Of a stretch of 12,978 bases of DNA, positions 4,589-12,978 are shown piece after piece (the first letter of the stretch is position 1; each line of letters begins with the position of its first letter). The stretch is taken from contig JALOTR010000076.1 in the NCBI GenBank assembly GCA_025457805.1, forward strand, positions 1 to 12,978, written 5' to 3'. Origin of the DNA: Akkermansiaceae bacterium (GTDB taxonomy: Bacteria; Verrucomicrobiota; Verrucomicrobiia; Verrucomicrobiales; Akkermansiaceae). The notes beneath the pieces were generated by a model. The model was not told the origin of the DNA, did not search any database, and saw only the letters and a list, made by a program, of their open reading frames with translations. Position numbers and translations under genes: made by a program.

Positions 4589-4609
4589 TGAAATCTGAAA
4601 TCTGAAATT
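4589..4609. repeat. Three tandem TGAAATC heptamers between convergent genes
   Basis: TGAAATC, TGAAATC and TGAAATT follow one another without gaps, filling most of the 25 bases between the dnaG stop and the stop of the minus-strand gene and just touching the latter's stop codon. There is no stable hairpin, so a terminator role is not supported. Replication slippage is a simple origin. Confidence 0.6.
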
Positions 4610-7600
4610 TATCTCAAACTCATGAGATAAGTGAAAAGATCACTCACTTGCGTATCGCTGAAGCCATCGATGAGGCCCTCGGGCATGAGTGAACGTTTTG
4701 ATATCTGATGCGCCTTCACTGCCGAGCGCGGGATGGCGCGTTCATCGGCACCGATCTGGCGGAGCACCAAGGTATCTTTCGTTTCAGATGCAAGGAAGCC
4801 GCTGGCCAGGCTGCCATCCGTCAAAGTGATATCATGGCGGTAGTAGCCGCTTTCCAATTGGGCGTTCGGCGTGAGGATATTGCGCAAGAGACTTTCGGTT
4901 CCCATCGCGCCGGCACCGCTGAGATCCGGGCCGATGGCCACGCCTTCGCCGGCGGCCTGGTGGCAGATCATGCAAGAGCTTTCAAACAGTTTTCTCCCTG
5001 CGGCGGCGTTGCCAGCCACTCCGGCGGCGTTGCGGAACCGCTCGAATTTTGCGGCAAGTGCGGCGGATTCCTCCGGATTCATGAGCTTGGGAAAATCGGC
5101 AGACCAATCGGTGCGGGCTCCTCCTTCAAGTGGCAGAGGCGACTTTTCTCCTGAATCCACCCAGCGATGGATGAGCCCGGCAGGTGCCTGGGTCATGCGC
5201 GTGTTGTGATCGCTGCGGATCTGTTCCGGCGTCCGTGCCAGATTCCAAATCCGGAACTCGCACAATCGTGCTGCCGTTCCACCGGGTTGGTTCGCTTTGC
5301 CGAGATCGAGGGACTTGAGTGGCAACTTGTAAGGTTCGCTTGAGGTGCCTGCGGGCTCGCCGTCGAGAAAGAGGGAGATGATGCCATTTGCATCCCGCGT
5401 GACGGCACAATGCGTCCACAGTCCGGCGGTCATGGGGCGCGTGGCGATCACCCAGTCTCTGGCTGCATAGAAACGCAGCAGGCCATCGTAAAAATTGATG
5501 TCCATTCCACCACCGCGCGAGCCGATGATGGCATCGCGGTTGTCGATTTGTTTATCTAACAAAATCCAGCATTCGATGGTGAATGCGCCATCCAGATCAA
5601 TGCCGGTTTTGACTGTTGCCTTGGCTGTGCCAGGGAAAAGAATCATCGGCTCAAGGAGTCCGCTCACATTCTTGAGCACTCCCTGCACCGCCGGATGATC
5701 CCGACCTAACAGCGCGGAAAATTTTTCGATGAGCGAAGGATCAAATCCAGCGAACTCTCCCGAGGCGACGCGTGAGGCAAGGGCCTCTGCCGTGGACTTG
5801 TGGGTGAGGAGTCCGTTGAGGGCGATGGGGCGGAGCACGCCCGGCATGGTGGCCCAGCGCTTGGAGAGGGTTTCCACTGCCTTGGGATCTGCTGATGAAG
5901 CGCAAAGAATCAGCGCCTCGCGCGCGACGGCGGGATCCGCATGATCAAGCAGTGAGGCGGCGAAGTCGTGTTCCTCGGCACCGATTTCATGAAGGGTGCG
6001 CAGAAGATTCGCAAGGGCCGCCGGATCTTTTTGGGATTTGGCCTCGGCGGTCACGATGGGTGCCATGCCTTGCAGCCGGAAATGCCGCGCAAGATCCAAT
6101 GCCAGCGGGAGTGATGTCGGAGTTTTCTCTAACAATCCGCGGGTTGCCTTTTCCACGATGGGCGCGAGTGCCGGATGGCGGGCGGATGCGGGGTCGAGTT
6201 TCAGCAAGGCCTTGAGAACTCCCTCGCGTTGGGTGGTGTTATCCAGAAGCTTGCGGAATGCCTCCTGCACTTGTGGATCGCCGATCTGCGATCCGAGCAA
6301 TGAGGCTTCTTCCGTATGAAGCGGGCGTCCCAGTGACGGCAAGATTTTCAACAGCGCCTCCGCAGCCTTGGCGGGCGGCAAGGCAAGGATGGCGAGGCTT
6401 TGGGTTGCGGGTGCGATTCCGGTTGGCGAAGATAGAAGTTTCTCCAGCGGTTCGGGGTGGGTTTCCATGGCCCAACGGATGAGATATCTCAAAAAATCAT
6501 CTTGATAGCGGACTCTTGGGTGTGGGGAATCATTCGTTGGAATCAAATCGCCGAGCCTGATCAACATGGCGGGCGTGACCGTGGTGCTTGGTTGGCGGCG
6601 GATGGCGTTGGCAAGGGCGCAGCGGACTTCGAAGTCGGGCTCGGCAGGGGCGGACAAGGCAAGAAACTCGCTCTCGGCCAACACCCGGTCCCCAGCGGCT
6701 TCGATCGATTCGCGGCGCATGGCGGGATTTGAGTCGCGGGCAAGTGAGATGAGATCGTTGACGTCCAGCGTTCCCATTTCCTGCATGGCCCAGAGTGCGT
6801 TGAGGCGTTTGGGGAGAGTTTGTGAGGTGTCCAGTGCCAGCTTGCGGAGTTCGGGTAAAATGGATGAATCCCTGCGATCACCGATCTCCGCCCATGCCAT
6901 GCGCGCCACGCGTGAGTTGGGATGTCCGAGCATGTCTAACAATTTGCCCGCTTCCATTTTTGTTAGATCTGGCGTCGCGGCGGGTGGCGTGCCCTTGGGG
7001 CGGATGCGCCAGATGCGGCCGCGGGTTTTGTCCCGATCCGGATGGGCGCGCGGGACTTCGTTGTGGGAAATGATTTTGTTATACCAATCGACCACATACA
7101 AACATCCATCCGGTCCGAAGTGGGTGGCGACCGGGCGGAACCAGACATCGCTGGATGTCATGAAATCCTCGCGCTTGGTCGTGACCGGATGACCATCCGC
7201 ATCCTGTCCACGCGTCACGATCTGGATCCGGTTGGTGATGGGGTTGGCGATGTAAAAGGTTTTTTCACCGGGCCATGCGGTGGCGAAGGGACTGCCCTCA
7301 TCATCTGCAAGCGCCATGCCGCTCAACCCCGTGCCGCCCATCGGCTGGCCGGGTGTGGATGGCGGCAGAACCGGTGCATAGGGCCGCAACGATTGTTTGT
7401 AGCCGCTCGGGTAATGTGTGCCGGCGATGAATTCGGAAACCGGATGACCAAGGTCGTTGGCCTCCTGCAAATACTCGCTGCCGTCGCGAGCGGTGGCGAA
7501 TCCCCAAATGTTGTTAGGCCCGGCGGTGACGAGTTCGAAGTCCGAGCCATCGAGTTTTGCACGGGCGAGTTTGCAGAAATCGAAAGCGACTTCTTTTTCT

Positions 7601-8799
7601 CCGTTCGCAAAAGCCTGGCCATCGGGCCGCACTACGGTGGAGCGATTGAACAAGCCTTGCGCGAGATAGAACCAGCCGCCGGGCGATCGCTCGAATTGAT
7701 GGGGAAATAAATGGGAATCCTGAATCCCGAAACCGGTAAGAACAACCTGATGGGAGTCGGCTTTGCCATCGCCGTTTTCATCCTGATAGAAACGGATCTC
7801 ATGACCATGCTGAACGAACACGCCGTTCTTCCATGGCAGGATTCCAAGTGGAATCGCGAGTCCTTCGGCAAAGACGCGCGGGGTTTGGGGACCGGGTTTC
7901 CATGGCTCGTCGAACACCAGAATCTTGTCCTTTCCTCCGCTTTTGAAGAGCGCTTCGGCGGCAGCGGCGTTTTCATTGGCGTCCACCGGATATTCGGTGG
8001 CGGTCATCGTCCACATCCGTCCGGCGTGATCCCATGCCACGGTGACTGGCTTGTGAACGCCTTCCTTCTCGGAAGCCACCAACTCGACCTCATATCCCGC
8101 TGGCAGTTTGAATGAGGTTTTTTCTTTTTCGGGAGAACGATCCCCCTCAACGGGCCAAGCCGGGGCGCCGGGAGTGGGTGGCAGTTCCTCCAATGTGATA
8201 TCTTTGAACTGAACCAAAAACTTGCCGCCGCTGTGAGCTTGCAGGCCAATGAGACCTTCGAGGGGGATGGCTGCATCTTTCTCGGTATAGTCGAGGGCGG
8301 GAACCCCGTTGATCCATGAACGAATCCGCGGACCTTCGCAAAGGATGCGGTAGTCATTCCAATCCCAATCCTTTGCGGTGGCGGCGATGGCAGCGGCGTC
8401 GATGGGTTCTCCGATAACCTTGTTTCTACGGGATTCATCGTACAACTTGCCCCACCAGCCGACTCCCGCGTCCACTTGATAGCCGGACATTTCATGATTC
8501 CCCGGCACGCGGATACTGCGAACCTGCACGCCGGAGTTGATGAAGCCTTCACCCCGGGTCAGGCGCACTTTGAAGCGGAGATCGAAGTTGGAAAAGCGCT
8601 TGTGATGAGTGAGGAAGGTGTTTTTGGGGACTTTTTTCTCAAGCGACCCGCCGGTGATCATGCCATCCTGCACGCGCCACCATGCCTCCTCGCCTTTGCG
8701 GATTTCCCAGCCATCGAGAGTCTTGCCGTCGAACAAGGAGACCGGCTCGGCGATCAGGGAGGAAATCGAGAGGACCCAGCAGAGAGTGAATGATTTCAT
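4609..8799 (-). CDS. Secreted PVC-type multidomain protein: DUF1080 + dehydrogenase-like propeller + HEAT + LamG-like + haem-binding CxxCH
   Basis: This 1396-aa exported protein starts with a signal peptide (residues 1-17, Lys2 then a hydrophobic core ending Leu-Ile-Ala). Residues about 20-205 form a DUF1080/3-keto-disaccharide hydrolase-type domain (LFDGKTLDGWE, later SGVQVRS). Residues about 230-615 form the beta-propeller of the PVC 'membrane-bound dehydrogenase' type (TIGR02604-like), with GPDGCLYVVDWYN and a final GRIWRIRPKG. HEAT-like repeats span about 640-1060. A LamG/concanavalin-like domain follows at about 1095-1250. The end is a PVC-type cytochrome domain, with Cys1276-Met-Ile-Cys1279-His1280 binding haem c and Met1372 as a possible distal ligand. 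A role in periplasmic oxidation and hydrolysis of a sugar polymer is inferred from the domains. The substrate is unknown. The start lies 12 bases after the stop of the broken Dabb gene, with no clear ribosome binding site, so translational coupling was probably the original arrangement. Confidence 0.9.
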   Translation of the reverse strand: MKSFTLCWVLSISSLIAEPVSLFDGKTLDGWEIRKGEEAWWRVQDGMITGGSLEKKVPKNTFLTHHKRFSNFDLRFKVRLTRGEGFINSGVQVRSIRVPGNHEMSGYQVDAGVGWWGKLYDESRRNKVIGEPIDAAAIAATAKDWDWNDYRILCEGPRIRSWINGVPALDYTEKDAAIPLEGLIGLQAHSGGKFLVQFKDITLEELPPTPGAPAWPVEGDRSPEKEKTSFKLPAGYEVELVASEKEGVHKPVTVAWDHAGRMWTMTATEYPVDANENAAAAEALFKSGGKDKILVFDEPWKPGPQTPRVFAEGLAIPLGILPWKNGVFVQHGHEIRFYQDENGDGKADSHQVVLTGFGIQDSHLFPHQFERSPGGWFYLAQGLFNRSTVVRPDGQAFANGEKEVAFDFCKLARAKLDGSDFELVTAGPNNIWGFATARDGSEYLQEANDLGHPVSEFIAGTHYPSGYKQSLRPYAPVLPPSTPGQPMGGTGLSGMALADDEGSPFATAWPGEKTFYIANPITNRIQIVTRGQDADGHPVTTKREDFMTSSDVWFRPVATHFGPDGCLYVVDWYNKIISHNEVPRAHPDRDKTRGRIWRIRPKGTPPAATPDLTKMEAGKLLDMLGHPNSRVARMAWAEIGDRRDSSILPELRKLALDTSQTLPKRLNALWAMQEMGTLDVNDLISLARDSNPAMRRESIEAAGDRVLAESEFLALSAPAEPDFEVRCALANAIRRQPSTTVTPAMLIRLGDLIPTNDSPHPRVRYQDDFLRYLIRWAMETHPEPLEKLLSSPTGIAPATQSLAILALPPAKAAEALLKILPSLGRPLHTEEASLLGSQIGDPQVQEAFRKLLDNTTQREGVLKALLKLDPASARHPALAPIVEKATRGLLEKTPTSLPLALDLARHFRLQGMAPIVTAEAKSQKDPAALANLLRTLHEIGAEEHDFAASLLDHADPAVAREALILCASSADPKAVETLSKRWATMPGVLRPIALNGLLTHKSTAEALASRVASGEFAGFDPSLIEKFSALLGRDHPAVQGVLKNVSGLLEPMILFPGTAKATVKTGIDLDGAFTIECWILLDKQIDNRDAIIGSRGGGMDINFYDGLLRFYAARDWVIATRPMTAGLWTHCAVTRDANGIISLFLDGEPAGTSSEPYKLPLKSLDLGKANQPGGTAARLCEFRIWNLARTPEQIRSDHNTRMTQAPAGLIHRWVDSGEKSPLPLEGGARTDWSADFPKLMNPEESAALAAKFERFRNAAGVAGNAAAGRKLFESSCMICHQAAGEGVAIGPDLSGAGAMGTESLLRNILTPNAQLESGYYRHDITLTDGSLASGFLASETKDTLVLRQIGADERAIPRSAVKAHQISKRSLMPEGLIDGFSDTQVSDLFTYLMSLR

Positions 8800-9180: not shown

Positions 9181-10053
9181 ATGGATCTCCGCCCCTTCCT
9201 TTTTGCTCTCCTTTTCCCGCATGCATTGACTTGCGGTGCCGCCGCCGGGGAACCCGACATCGTGGTGCCTGCGGACTACGCAGCGCTCGATCCCGCCATC
9301 GCCGGCTGGCAGGCCCGGCTCGAAAGGGAAAACCCGGATCGCTTCGAAGCCCGCACATTTCGAAACGGGGATCGGACCGTCCGCTATCGCTGGTTTGCTC
9401 CAGAGCGCAGCGACCGGCCTCTTCCCCTTGTCATCGTCCTGCACGGCAGCTCGGGCAAAGGCAGCGACAATCTCGCCCATCTCGTCACCGGAAACAGCGT
9501 CGTTGGTGCCGGCTACTGGGCCGCGTCGGAGCAACAGCGCGGAAATCCCTGTTTTGTCCTGGCGCCCCAATGTCCGCCCGGCGAGATGTGGACCCGGACC
9601 GCCTCGTGGACTTCGCCCGTGCATCCCCTCTCTCCGGAACCGGCCCCCGCCCTTGCCGACCTCATGGCCTTGCTGGATAAAACGCTCGCCGCCCATCCCA
9701 TCGATCCCGGGCGCATCTATCTTCTCGGCGCCTCCATGGGCGGATACGGCGTTTGGGACTGGATCGTGCGCGACACTCGGCGCTTCGCCGCCGCGGTTGC
9801 TATCTGCGGAGGCATGCCCGAGGGTCAGGCGGCGGCACTTCGCGATCTGCCCCTGTGGATTTTCCATGGAGAAAACGACGGCATCGTACCGGTGGAGAAG
9901 TCCCGCCTCGCGTTCAGGGAGATTCTCGCTGCGGGCGGTCGGCCCCGCTACCGGGAATACCAGGATGGGCCGCACAGCATTTCTTCATATGCTTACCTCG
10001 ATCCCGGAGTCACCAAGTGGCTTTTTGCGCAGAGACGCAAGGCTGCGGAGTGA
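9181..10053 (+). CDS. Secreted alpha/beta hydrolase (esterase, PHB-depolymerase/dienelactone-hydrolase-like)
   Basis: This is a serine hydrolase of the alpha/beta fold, 290 aa from the ATG at 9181. It begins with a signal peptide (Arg4, then a Phe/Leu/Ala-rich core to about residue 22). The oxyanion-hole segment LHGSSGKGSDN is near residue 85. The nucleophile elbow Gly-Ala-Ser185-Met-Gly-Gly-Tyr, Asp233 in FHGENDGIVP and His265 in DGPHSIS form the catalytic triad with the expected spacing. A longer frame opens at the GTG at 9079, which has a well-placed GGAGG at 9066-9070. That start would put 34 residues before the signal peptide, so 9181 is preferred although its own ribosome binding site is poor. 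The substrate is unknown; an ester in carbohydrate or polymer breakdown is plausible. The gene is divergent from the Dabb/cytochrome unit. Confidence 0.85.
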   Translation: MDLRPFLFALLFPHALTCGAAAGEPDIVVPADYAALDPAIAGWQARLERENPDRFEARTFRNGDRTVRYRWFAPERSDRPLPLVIVLHGSSGKGSDNLAHLVTGNSVVGAGYWAASEQQRGNPCFVLAPQCPPGEMWTRTASWTSPVHPLSPEPAPALADLMALLDKTLAAHPIDPGRIYLLGASMGGYGVWDWIVRDTRRFAAAVAICGGMPEGQAAALRDLPLWIFHGENDGIVPVEKSRLAFREILAAGGRPRYREYQDGPHSISSYAYLDPGVTKWLFAQRRKAAE

Positions 10054-10100
10054 TCCGCGAGAGGAGGCCATCAGCTCGGGCCGCATTTCTATAATACAAA

Positions 10101-10133
10101 AATCCCGCCGACGGACTGGCCGCGGGCGGGATT
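10101..10133 (-). terminator. Intrinsic terminator for the TIGR04073 gene
   Basis: The nine-base arms AATCCCGCC (10101-10109) and GGCGGGATT (10125-10133) form a perfect G+C-rich stem with a 15-base loop. Read on the minus strand, the stem is followed by a T-run (GGCGGGATTTTTGTATT). It begins 52 bases beyond the stop codon of the minus-strand TIGR04073 gene. On the plus strand no T-run follows, so it is not a good terminator for the hydrolase. Confidence 0.65.
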
Positions 10134-10185
10134 GGTGAAAATAGGAGAAACGAATCGTGCGATCTGCTTCCTCCAAGCAAGCAAC

Positions 10186-10596
10186 TCAGTATTTCTGAGT
10201 GCGGGCGTGGTGGAAGTAGGTCTCGAATCCGAGTTCCGGTGGGAATTCGGAGAGGCCGTCGTGCACGTTCATCTCGATGCGATTGTCCTCACCGCAACGC
10301 TCATAAGGTGGCTTGAAGGTGCCGCGATAGGTGGGGCATGTGAAGGTGAAGAGCTCGTAGAAACCGTAACCGAGGCGGCGAAGCGCACGGTTGGTGCCAT
10401 CGACCGCACCGTAAGTCCAACCAGCCTTGCGACCGTAGGCCTCGTTCTTGCGGACGATTTGTTCCGGGATTTCGACAATGCCGTAAACGATGTTGCTGAT
10501 GGCGCGGCCGAGCTTGCGGGAGGATGTGTAGGTGGATCCGGGAGGTGCCTGGATGTCCGCCGAAACAAGTCCGGTGAGCGAGATCGTTGGGTTGCT
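10186..10596 (-). pseudogene. TIGR04073-family exosortase-system-associated protein, 5' end missing
   Basis: On the minus strand, 136 codons are open from just after an in-frame TGA (10597-10599) to the TGA at 10186-10188. The protein carries the family's signature: Arg-Lys-Leu-Gly-Arg-Ala, then Val-Tyr-Gly-Ile-Val-Glu-Ile-Pro-Glu-Gln-Ile. It continues with a Gly/Arg/Tyr-rich stretch (GRKAGWTYG, RRLGYGFYELFTF) and ends HARTQKY. Its first residues, SLTGLVSA before Asp, look like the last part of a signal peptide with its cleavage site. No ATG, GTG or TTG start lies in frame and the start of the signal sequence is lost. The break falls where G+C-rich DNA becomes A+T rich. The family is known from Verrucomicrobia with exosortase systems, and its role is unclear. 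The protein could be expressed only from an unusual start or a frameshift. Confidence 0.75.
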
Positions 10597-10796
10597 TCAA
10601 CCATATAAATAGACTTAAACGCTTATTCAGCAAAGATTACAGGTGACATACAAAATCGAGTACCTAAGTATATTAATTACTCATGCAGAATGTGGGGTTG
10701 GGGGAATTTCACAAAGATTAACATGGTCGAACAGTATAATGTTGGACTATTTGATCTAATATTTAAGTTATTCATTTTTCTATCTTTTAAATCACC
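10597..10796. other. A+T-rich junction region, no supported gene
   Basis: The region begins at the break in the TIGR04073 gene. At the boundary is a perfect five-base inverted repeat, GGTTG-CTT-CAACC (10590-10602). A TATAAT at 10735-10740 matches the -10 consensus exactly but has no acceptable -35 partner. It would place a transcript start some 50 bases before the 38-codon ORF. A 29-codon hydrophobic ORF (10723-10812) overlaps that ORF and has no ribosome binding site. I see no transposase, integrase or terminal repeats. Confidence 0.4.
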
Positions 10797-10913
10797 ATGT
10801 TTATACATATAGCAGAAACATTAAACTATGGAAGCATTGAGAGTTTTTTGCTTAGAAGTGAGCTAACGCAGCTTCAAACGATTATGAATAAGGTATGCAA
10901 GTTTATTAGTTGA
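10797..10913 (+). CDS. Small 38-aa ORF ending in Phe-Ile-Ser: candidate RiPP precursor
   Basis: ATG to TGA encodes 38 residues: an N-terminal part MFIHIAETLNYG, an amphipathic stretch around SELTQLQTIM, then Val-Cys-Lys and the C-terminus Phe-Ile-Ser. FxsA-type precursors of three-residue cyclophane peptides end in or near Phe-x-Ser, and an FxsB-like radical SAM gene lies about 680 bases downstream on the same strand. The only gene between them is the unknown 191-aa protein. An in-frame TAA at 10788-10790 fixes the ATG as the only upstream start. Against it: no Shine-Dalgarno sequence is visible, a 38-codon frame is easily open by chance, and real FxsA peptides are usually longer with one or two residues after the motif. 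The role as precursor is an inference from position and C-terminus. Confidence 0.35.
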   Translation: MFIHIAETLNYGSIESFLLRSELTQLQTIMNKVCKFIS

Positions 10914-10946
10914 TGTATTCAGATAAAAAATAAATCTTATGCAGCA

Positions 10947-10975
10947 TTGATCTTCATTCAACTATGGTATCTTAT
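10947..10975 (+). promoter_or_regulatory. Weak candidate promoter for the A+T-rich gene pair
   Basis: TTGATC (10947-10952, 4 of 6) and TCTTAT (10970-10975, 4 of 6) are separated by 17 bases. A transcript would start near 10982, after the ATG at 10964 but before the ATG at 11006, which would favour the shorter start. Such matches are frequent in A+T-rich DNA. Confidence 0.2.
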
Positions 10976-11005
10976 TTGTACATCTCTACCTTTATATATA
11001 TAGCA

Positions 11006-11581
11006 ATGGTTAACTTTTTGAATGGTCTTGAAAGCCTTATCAGTGAATGGGATGATCAAACTCCTCGTGAACCCGATAAAGATAAAGATTTAATCTTTGT
11101 AAATGGAGAAGAAGGAACCATAAATTCTAATGGTAAATTATCTTGCTTGGAAGCTTCGATTTTTTCAAGAAATAGTCGAATTTTTGAAGATGCTATAGAA
11201 AAAGGTGTTAAATCTTTGGTCTTATATCTTACTGATTCTGTTGGGCTAATAACATATACTAGCTGTGAAGGGCATCGAGTTAATCGAGAGTTAAATATAT
11301 TGAAGCATCGCAATGTTGGGATTTTACCCAGAAACTTGGAAGAGTATAATTTTGTCAAATACAATTTAAAACAGGTTGAAAGTTTTTTTGTTAAGTTAAA
11401 TAATAATAAATGTGTTCAAGTCACTATTGATGAAAATTTCGTTGAATCAGAAAATGGGAAAATGCCTTGCATAGATATTCTTTTTCTGCCCAAACTGGGA
11501 AAAGAAAATGACTATTTTCTTGCTCTGGAAGAAGTCTATCAGAATTTTCTAGAGCTAACAAAACGCCAATTCAAACGATAG
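11006..11581 (+). CDS. Unrecognised 191-aa protein paired with the radical SAM gene
   Basis: I do not recognise this family. From the ATG at 11006 it has 191 residues. An upstream in-frame ATG at 10964 would add 14 mostly hydrophobic residues, and neither start has a ribosome binding site. It begins FLNGLESLISEWDD, followed by a charged linker. Next come a helical/beta core (SLVLYLTDSVGLITYT), a striking Ser-Cys87-Glu-Gly-His90 motif, then RNVGILPRNLEEY, and a helical C-terminus ending KRQFKR. Its stop codon overlaps the AGGAG of the radical SAM gene, which starts 13 bases later, so the two are probably co-translated. Possible roles are a partner or recognition protein, or a second modifying protein. 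Its length argues against a simple peptide precursor. Codon use is A+T rich, unlike genes before 10600. Confidence 0.7.
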   Translation: MVNFLNGLESLISEWDDQTPREPDKDKDLIFVNGEEGTINSNGKLSCLEASIFSRNSRIFEDAIEKGVKSLVLYLTDSVGLITYTSCEGHRVNRELNILKHRNVGILPRNLEEYNFVKYNLKQVESFFVKLNNNKCVQVTIDENFVESENGKMPCIDILFLPKLGKENDYFLALEEVYQNFLELTKRQFKR

Positions 11582-11584
11582 GAG
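11580..11584 (+). promoter_or_regulatory. Ribosome binding site of the radical SAM gene, overlapping the upstream stop
   Basis: AGGAG lies ten bases before the ATG at 11595 and shares bases with the TAG stop (11579-11581) of the preceding gene. The arrangement indicates translational coupling and supports 11595 as the start. Confidence 0.7.
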
Positions 11585-11594
11585 CATACCCTAT

Positions 11595-12623
11595 ATGTCT
11601 AAATTCACGACATTTTTATTAAAAGTAGCTAGTAGGTGTAATTTGGATTGCACTTATTGTTATGAGTTTAAACTTGCTGATCAATCTTGGAAAGACCAGC
11701 CACACCTTATGACTTCTGAAGTTTGGAGAGTTTCTGCCGAAAAAATCTCAGATTATGCTCTTAAACATGAATTATTATCCGTAGGTATTAATCTACATGG
11801 AGGAGAACCCCTGCTTTTGGGGAAAAAGAACATTAGGTTTCTGCTTAGTGACTTTAAGTCAATTCTAAGTAAAAATAATATTAATGTGAGTTATGGTCTA
11901 CAAACTAATGGGGTTTTACTTGATCAAGAATGGTTAGATATTTTTAGTGAGTTTAATGTCCGAATAGGTATCAGTCTTGATGGGGATCCAAATGCTCATG
12001 ATAAAAATAGAGTGTTTTTTTCGGGCAAAGGATCTTATGCTATAGTCAGAGAGGCTATTAATTTATGCCTATCTCAAGCTAAAAACAGGGAAGTTTTTGG
12101 TGGGACTTTAGCTGTGATTGATGTTGAATCAGATCCGATAGAAGTTCTGCATCATTTCTTAGATATAGGAGTGAAGACAGTTGATTTTCTATTTCCAGAT
12201 GCAAATTGGGATTCTTTGCCTCCTGGTAAGAAACATTTTCATGAAACTATTTATGCGGATTGGTTAATAAAAGTTTTTAATGAGTATTTGAGGATCAATG
12301 ACCCAAGTATTTCTATTAGGATATTTGAAACTTTGATCAAGCTTTGCCTTGGTTATAAGCATAACATGGACATATTTGGGATTGCGCCTATAGAAATCTT
12401 GGTTATATCAGCTAACGGAGATCTACATGCTTTAGATTCTTTGAAGGCTTCCCTACCAACTTACTTAGGAAAGAACATCCTTAGTGATGACTTTGAATAT
12501 TCTACTATTGCCAAAACTGAGTTAGGAAAAGCACAGACAGGTGGATACGAAAATTTGGCTGATAAATGTAAAGCATGTGTGAACTCGTTAATCCCATCAT
12601 TCACTTACATTCGTTATGGATGA
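11595..12623 (+). CDS. FxsB-like radical SAM peptide maturase with degenerate C-terminal SPASM region
   Basis: This is a radical SAM enzyme of 342 aa. Cys15-x3-Cys19-x2-Cys22 in SRCNLDCTYCYEF binds the catalytic [4Fe-4S] cluster. His68-Gly-Gly-Glu-Pro72 and Ser127-Leu-Asp-Gly130 are the usual SAM-binding and core motifs. The flanking sequence matches my recollection of FxsB-type RiPP maturases, which crosslink Phe-x-Ser: LADQSWKDQP after the cluster, the pattern IRIFETLI, then FGIAPIEILV and Leu-Asp-Ser-Leu-Lys. The SPASM region starts normally (Cys325-Lys-Ala-Cys328), but the following cysteine and Gly-Gly-Gly are replaced by Pro-Ser-Phe-Thr. The frame ends soon after at Ile-Arg-Tyr-Gly. A plausible continuation lies in the next frame (12616-12690). 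The enzyme may therefore be frameshifted, or may have lost its auxiliary cluster. Family membership is likely. The substrate is inferred. Confidence 0.85.
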   Translation: MSKFTTFLLKVASRCNLDCTYCYEFKLADQSWKDQPHLMTSEVWRVSAEKISDYALKHELLSVGINLHGGEPLLLGKKNIRFLLSDFKSILSKNNINVSYGLQTNGVLLDQEWLDIFSEFNVRIGISLDGDPNAHDKNRVFFSGKGSYAIVREAINLCLSQAKNREVFGGTLAVIDVESDPIEVLHHFLDIGVKTVDFLFPDANWDSLPPGKKHFHETIYADWLIKVFNEYLRINDPSISIRIFETLIKLCLGYKHNMDIFGIAPIEILVISANGDLHALDSLKASLPTYLGKNILSDDFEYSTIAKTELGKAQTGGYENLADKCKACVNSLIPSFTYIRYG

Positions 12624-12690
12624 ATACGGCTTTAGATCTCGTAATATCGTAAGCTATGACCGTAATTTTTCCAATGCTGTTCATCTGTAG
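12616..12690 (+). pseudogene. Possible frameshifted C-terminal tail of the radical SAM enzyme
   Basis: In the +1 frame relative to the radical SAM gene, 24 codons from 12616 to a TAG at 12688-12690 read Asp-Glu-Tyr-Gly-Phe and then SRNIVSYDRNFSNAVHL. In complete FxsB-type proteins, His-Arg-Tyr is followed by Gly-Phe-Asp-Asn-Pro-Ser-Val-Tyr-Cys and a hydrophobic helix. The order Arg-Tyr, Gly-Phe, Asn, Tyr and hydrophobics is kept here, which suggests one continuous protein interrupted by a single-base shift near 12612-12623. The expected final cysteine is absent. The stretch is short, so the resemblance is suggestive only. Confidence 0.4.
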
Positions 12691-12738
12691 TGGTACTGAC
12701 AAAAATTTTAGCAGTAAGCAGCGATCTTACACATTTAC

Positions 12739-12864
12739 ATGGTGAGCCATAATTACTGGAATCCTTGGGTATCGATCGGCGTAGCTCTGCTATATGTGTT
12801 AGTCCTACACTACAATTTCAGTTGCTATACTTGTGATAATGCTAAGTGCAATTGCGGGTGTTAA
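12739..12864 (+). CDS. Small 41-aa ORF with membrane-like helix and Cys-rich tail
   Basis: ATG to TAA encodes 41 residues. The N-terminus has two tryptophans (Asn-Tyr-Trp-Asn-Pro-Trp), followed by a hydrophobic run of about 14 residues (VSIGVALLYVLVLH). The tail holds five cysteines in 13 residues: Cys29-x2-Cys32-x4-Cys37-x-Cys39-x-Cys41, the last being the C-terminal residue. It lies 115 bases after the radical SAM stop on the same strand. The layout suggests a small membrane-anchored metal- or disulfide-rich peptide, or a cysteine-rich RiPP substrate. No ribosome binding site is visible, and an open frame of this length can arise by chance. The cysteine clustering is the main reason to list it. 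Confidence 0.3.
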   Translation: MVSHNYWNPWVSIGVALLYVLVLHYNFSCYTCDNAKCNCGC

Positions 12865-12978
12865 CTGTTCCGTTCTTTGCGTTTGCATTCCGTTTTGCCT
12901 TTCAGTCCATTAAAGGTGTCATACGTAACACATAATCACGTGATTTTACTCGGTAGAGTGCATCTATCTTAAAGATGC
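12865..12978. other. Terminal stretch without a gene; short hairpin at the edge
   Basis: No ORF is supported in the last 114 bases. The final 19 bases form a stem-loop, GCATCT-(7 bases)-AGATGC (12960-12978), cut by the window edge. No T-run can be seen because the sequence ends there. Confidence 0.3.

Follow-up and report, generated by a model that had tools for sequence, protein, structure and literature searches.

A broken YhhB/FxsB-like radical SAM gene and its SCEGH partner at the end of an Akkermansiaceae contig

The gene pair and the closest described maturases

A review passage (PMC11002830) on radical S-adenosylmethionine (SAM) maturases describes YhhB as joining Tyr C3 and His C2 to an Arg beta-carbon, HaaB as joining His C2 to an Ala beta-carbon, and MscB as joining Phe C4 to a Ser beta-carbon. 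In a different field, a passage of a second source (PMC7761594) places TYW3 in the tRNA wyosine/wybutosine pathway after a radical SAM enzyme, with Taw1 making imG-14. Here we describe a pair of genes that recalls both systems, located in the A+T-rich end of a 12,978-nt stretch of Akkermansiaceae DNA (the window), which is the whole of contig C240 of bin G000 (736 contigs; bin completeness 59%). One gene encodes a relative of the YhhB and FxsB maturases, and the other belongs to a family that we named SCEGH because its residues S86-C87-E88-G89-H90 are invariant. With somewhat better than even confidence, we read the stretch as a fragment of a cyclophane (triceptide) locus for a ribosomally synthesized and post-translationally modified peptide (RiPP), with a broken radical SAM gene and an apparently intact SCEGH gene, the product of which would act as a tailoring protein in intact loci.

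11006..11581, plus strand: gene for a 191-residue SCEGH protein, TYW3-like in its model, partner of cyclophane-type radical SAM enzymes (homology, profile, structure model)
11595..12623, plus strand: YhhB/FxsB-like radical SAM gene, 3' end broken (NCBIfam profiles, homology, alignment)

The radical SAM product has 342 residues and carries CxxxCxxC at residues 15, 19 and 22, in common with YhhB and FxsB, its best NCBIfam matches. It scored 309 bits against YhhB (NF041707, cut-off 445) and 295 bits against FxsB (TIGR04269, cut-off 370), while the best model outside the cyclophane maturases gave 131 bits. These scores below the cut-offs are not due to the lost C-terminus, because two full-length relatives also fell below both: the radical SAM enzyme of the Chloroflexota locus L003 (YhhB 375.9, FxsB 333.6 bits) and the search match P0012 (371.8 and 346.6 bits). 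A tree was built from 47 rows, namely 30 matches chosen from the best 120 of 1046 radical SAM search matches, 16 rows from loci with SCEGH genes and the window enzyme. In this tree, whose long-branch joins may be spurious and whose rows include no biochemically tested reference enzyme, the window enzyme grouped with P0012, P0013 and the second L003 enzyme (support 98/93); this group sits inside a clade (98/98) with the other chosen matches, four of which carry the source label FxsB. By profile scores and tree, the enzyme is kin to the cyclophane-type maturases in the wide sense, with cyclophane formation predicted, and we describe it as related to the YhhB/FxsB maturases but beyond their curated limits. 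An earlier note on this DNA, made from its letters, had described the enzyme as FxsB-like, and that description held as kinship and failed as curated membership.

The window copy differs from YhhB and FxsB, and from its own relatives, in its C-terminus. It is 33 residues short of its 375-residue relatives, which it matches up to ...KCKAC before diverging at the last cysteine-rich part. Each of the 13 aligned relatives continues with C-G-(G/A)-G...HR and a tail, both of which are gone here; the window copy is thus without the C-terminal SPASM part, whereas the full-length relatives keep the cysteine-rich part. At the DNA level, homology between the gene pair and L003 (64.9% identity) covers 11005–12592 only, and the contig ends 386 bases past this limit and 355 bases past the end of the radical SAM reading frame. 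No FxS precursor was recognised near the enzyme, the contig stopping 355 bases after the gene. Because the enzyme is without its C-terminal cysteine-rich part and no precursor was recognised, the pair as it stands is not expected to function, and the window, which carries a broken copy, is of little importance in itself; among named relatives of the pair, L003 is the best intact one.

Both genes were confirmed as real by homology, including the 191-residue frame proposed earlier. The claim that they are translationally coupled is at most plausible, because they do not overlap and are separated by a 13-nt gap.

The closest solved radical SAM structure by sequence was ChlB, the radical SAM domain of a fused radical SAM–alpha-ketoglutarate (alphaKG)-HExxH protein (PDB 9gm3; E 7.7e-55). 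HExxH genes are also frequent in SCEGH loci, but the radical SAM domain is fused to HExxH in ChlB and to SCEGH in two plasmid cases, and the window and L003 show no HExxH gene. Defence models gave just a general radical SAM (viperin) resemblance.

SCEGH genes recur beside cyclophane-type radical SAM genes

The SCEGH family comprised 10 proteins by sequence search, the window protein included, and 144 by profile search, the best 120 of which were examined. Across an alignment of 78 rows (the window protein and 77 further matches), W15, G37, E65, Y84, S86, C87, E88, G89, H90 and R102 were invariant. The window protein had no match in Pfam or PADLOC and one chance-level row in NCBIfam (E 0.062), and none of 10 members scanned against NCBIfam matched a model at E up to 1. 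As judged from these searches, SCEGH appears to be a family without a name in any library searched.

A scan for the pattern TY[TS]SCEGH in one genome per species (84,980 species) found 11 loci, which together with two plasmid loci and two further genome loci gave 15. A radical SAM gene was present in 14 of the 15. It directly adjoined the SCEGH gene in six (L003, L005, L006, L007, L009 and L012), was fused to it in two (Streptomyces clavifer L014 and Kitasatospora cathayae L015) and stood with it in a same-strand gene run in five (L008, L010, L011, L043 and L044); in L013 it lay about 2.4 kb from the SCEGH piece, which is short. The exception was the Okeania locus L004, with no radical SAM gene inside 8 kb to each side of the SCEGH gene. 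Both fusion proteins bear the annotation 'radical SAM protein', and the SCEGH domain makes up their C-terminal third. An alphaKG-HExxH peptide hydroxylase gene was found in 12 of the 15 loci (all except L003, L004 and L013), and the HExxH genes scanned, from 11 of these 12 loci, all exceeded the TIGR04267 cut-off. SCEGH genes therefore recur beside or fused to cyclophane-type radical SAM genes, mostly with an alphaKG-HExxH gene, in several bacterial groups. This neighbourhood check strongly supported the proposal in the earlier note that an unusual partner protein accompanies such enzymes.

The radical SAM enzymes of these loci belong to several lineages: YhhB-like (the window and L003), XyeB-like, AmcB-like, and others without a close model. 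XyeB (TIGR04496, cut-off 450) was the best-scoring model for the enzymes of L008 (275.5 bits) and L044 (280 bits), and AmcB (NF041718, cut-off 425) for that of L043 (395 bits). All three enzymes thus differ from XyeB and AmcB in falling under the curated cut-offs, as did every other radical SAM enzyme of these loci that was scanned, and the three loci also carry HExxH and SCEGH genes. For six radical SAM-bearing proteins, NCBIfam gave nothing at an E threshold of 1e-45.

The family was rare in the genome samples, with 1 of 387 in Verrucomicrobiota (the window's own), 1 of 400 in Chloroflexota (that of L003), 2 of 377 in Myxococcota and 2 of 198 in the family of L008, counts that may be low, because no more than 7, 8 or 15 candidates from a first look were scored in each genome. 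Viral contigs searched with SCEGH patterns gave no match.

Several loci showed features of their own. In L003 (2608–7753; Chloroflexi bacterium HGW-Chloroflexi-2), two radical SAM genes flank the SCEGH gene, and the locus also holds a 75-residue candidate precursor and two genes that may encode methyltransferases. The fusions of L014 (6735–8630) and L015 (6753–8639) lie on large linear plasmids of Streptomycetaceae; downstream of each is an alphaKG-HExxH gene, and a small peptide gene (51 and 46 residues, respectively, mutually similar) stands between the two. L008, L010, L011 and L044, from Stenotrophomonas, Acanthopleuribacter and one genome of the family of L008, combine an XyeB-like radical SAM enzyme, an HExxH hydroxylase, an exporter like peptidase-type ones and SCEGH in a gene run (for the L010 exporter, the best NCBIfam match was below its cut-off). 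The Okeania SCEGH gene (L004, 7992–8552) adjoins an ABC transporter-like gene, and a neighbouring gene presumably has a cold-shock-like start. L013 (7935–8177) holds an 80-residue SCEGH-like piece from a Thermoanaerobacter metagenome-assembled genome, perhaps minimal or truncated. In the Pseudomonas locus L009, an open frame at 9368–10795 matched the HExxH hydroxylase model as well as Nudix hydrolases and is perhaps a fusion.

The SCEGH model, precursor candidates and possible role

The predicted structure of the window protein (pLDDT 93.1) is a small alpha/beta protein whose top three structural matches were all TYW3. Additionally, a profile alignment placed the SCEGH motif in register with the SCSGR of TYW3 (P 7.6e-4; 0/300 shuffles; probability 25%). 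Other searches weigh against this assignment. The Pfam TYW3 model (PF02676, gathering score 27 bits) did not match the window protein, listed 3 of 78 SCEGH members with a best E of 0.14, and appeared in none of 10 members rescanned against Pfam, and a profile search of the PDB with SCEGH found no TYW3. A shortened TYW3-like fold, with the SCEGH turn where TYW3 has SCSGR, is thus supported, not proven. Compared with TYW3/Taw3, the SAM-dependent methyltransferases of wyosine/wybutosine biosynthesis, SCEGH proteins have about 40 residues less after the motif, end it with His instead of Arg, are encoded beside peptide maturases, and gain no membership from the PF02676 model. We know of no process besides wyosine/wybutosine synthesis in which TYW3 takes part, and among the papers searched we found none connecting TYW3 with ribosomally synthesized peptides or biosynthetic gene clusters, and none treating cyclophane, radical SAM and FxsB together.

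Candidate precursors were recognised in the related loci. In L008, L010, L011 and L044, a peptide of 58–70 residues with His-x-Ser repeats is encoded immediately ahead of the radical SAM gene. Counts of aromatic-x-(N/D/S) in the C-terminal half of these candidates exceeded those of shuffles (L008, 0/5000; L044, 0.0014; L010, 0.0018; L011, 0.0194), as did those of the 75-residue L003 candidate with YTD, WID, HIN, YRD, HSD and HAN (P 0.0174), for a pattern picked after viewing the sequences and with L008, L010, L011 and L044 being close kin. The candidates of L005, L007, L012, L014 and L015 had counts no higher than shuffles; those of L007 and L012, from different phyla, have YHIK[DE]SGP[ST]WV[DN]SP in common. 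The Phe-x-Ser substrate expected in the earlier note found no support, as F-x-S occurred in the C-terminal half of none of 10 related-locus candidates and no precursor was recognised in the window. That note had also drawn attention to two short reading frames flanking the pair; neither showed cyclophane-motif enrichment, no short frame of the window was recognised as a precursor, and the 41-residue frame at 12739 had no family match over the cut-off.

We infer that in intact loci the radical SAM enzyme would link an aromatic side chain to the beta-carbon two residues further, the HExxH enzyme would hydroxylate the peptide, and the SCEGH protein would tailor the crosslinked product, most likely as a SAM-dependent methyltransferase. 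Because His occurs in many candidate cores and TYW3 acts on an imidazole-fused ring, the His imidazole could be the target, a reasonable idea but a guess by analogy.

SCEGH might instead be non-catalytic, a precursor-binding or radical SAM-supporting subunit comparable to a RiPP recognition element. Its predicted small alpha/beta structure would suit this, as would its position, adjoining the radical SAM gene in 6 of the 15 loci and fused to it in 2. Set against this are the invariant five-residue turn with Cys, Glu and His, which together with Glu65 and Arg102 resembles an active site, and the association of SCEGH with several radical SAM lineages and dissimilar precursor candidates. We consider such a subunit unlikely, if worth weighing.

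A bolder form of the methyltransferase proposal is that SCEGH proteins are TYW3-type SAM-dependent methyltransferases that moved from RNA to peptides and act on the imidazole or on a hydroxylated neighbouring residue of the His-containing cyclophanes formed by the adjacent radical SAM enzyme, as a third step after crosslinking and HExxH hydroxylation across several maturase lineages; in this full form it is speculative and doubtful. A thiol- or metal-dependent leader peptidase, as the invariant Cys, Glu and His in one turn might suggest, is improbable given the TYW3-like predicted model and the peptidase-type-like exporters that L008, L010, L011 and L044 already carry.

If the tailoring role is true, a TYW3-like protein that stands beside several cyclophane-type radical SAM lineages, and is fused to such an enzyme on two plasmids, would add a new type of tailoring partner to RiPP biosynthesis. 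The pattern TY[TS]SCEGH provides a mining handle for the family.

Edges of the A+T-rich stretch and the host DNA

10192..10596, minus strand: TIGR04073 (exosortase system-associated) host gene, 5' end lost (NCBIfam 78.9 bits, cut-off 50)
10596, no strand: composition break from host DNA to A+T-rich DNA (change-point test)
12593..12978, plus strand: tail without recognised feature (386 bases, G+C 0.39, running to the contig end)

The G+C content is 0.58 in the first 10.59 kb of the window and falls abruptly past 10596, to 0.30 ahead of the gene pair, 0.34 inside it and 0.39 in the tail. A maximum-likelihood test set the change point at 10596, with a log-likelihood gain of 141.5 where 200 shuffles reached 7.9 at most. 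This agrees with the sharp shift near 10600 reported before, and the samples of 60 bases at 9241 and 11101 do contain 43 and 20 G/C bases, as counted then. Calling the stretch an island went too far, since the contig end at 12978 leaves a single edge visible. The tail had no homology to L003 and no match among plasmids, and a phage DNA search with the whole A+T-rich stretch, tail included, gave no match.

The break falls in the signal-peptide region of the TIGR04073 gene, coincident with the change point, and the reading frame reaches a stop before any start codon. This gene was present in 37 of 39 genomes, the window's own included, and in 24 of 25 within the genus; among 11 same-genus copies the start was readable in 9, all of which begin with MKKL. 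Nucleotide homology of the host side to 11 relatives stops at 10560–10578, and past the break position 8 of the 11 carry a gene that we take to be SerA-like. A 150-residue piece of its protein had no match in the bin, which is weak evidence because the bin is only 59% complete.

The junction with Verrucomicrobiota-type DNA arose either as a chimera at the contig end or by an insertion that later decayed. It is fairly likely that an assembler joined an A+T-rich end from another organism to this contig, in which case the stretch would be uninformative on the Verrucomicrobiota genome, while the reading of the genes as a cyclophane locus fragment would be unaffected. The single edge is at the contig end and within a genus-conserved gene, the radical SAM gene runs out into unrelated DNA, the A+T-rich DNA has no second copy in the bin, SCEGH occurs in the phylum sample in this genome alone, and the presumed SerA-like neighbour was not found. 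The incompleteness of the bin weakens the last point, and a genuine insertion followed by decay would give the same picture. Lateral acquisition, as proposed in the earlier note, is possible, with a chimeric contig end at least as likely: the left edge is within a host gene, the right edge within the radical SAM gene, and the contig ends 386 bases further on. A transferred locus that still functions is highly improbable, for although its composition differs from the rest of the contig and its nearest named relative is in Chloroflexota, the radical SAM enzyme is without the C-terminal part kept by 13/13 aligned relatives, no precursor was recognised, a host gene is cut, no tRNA lies at the edge, and there is no mobility gene among the three scanned reading frames of the stretch.

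In the remainder of the window, a repeat search found short or imperfect repeats only and no sign of an inverted chimera, and an Rfam search gave a single match, far under its gathering score. The sole tRNA found was a tRNA-Val at 2445. The host part encodes a pyridoxal phosphate (PLP) enzyme of Cys/Met metabolism, a DNA primase and an alpha/beta hydrolase, and at 4609–8799 a 1396-residue protein with 3-keto-disaccharide hydrolase, DUF7133, HEAT, LamG-like and cytochrome c domains.

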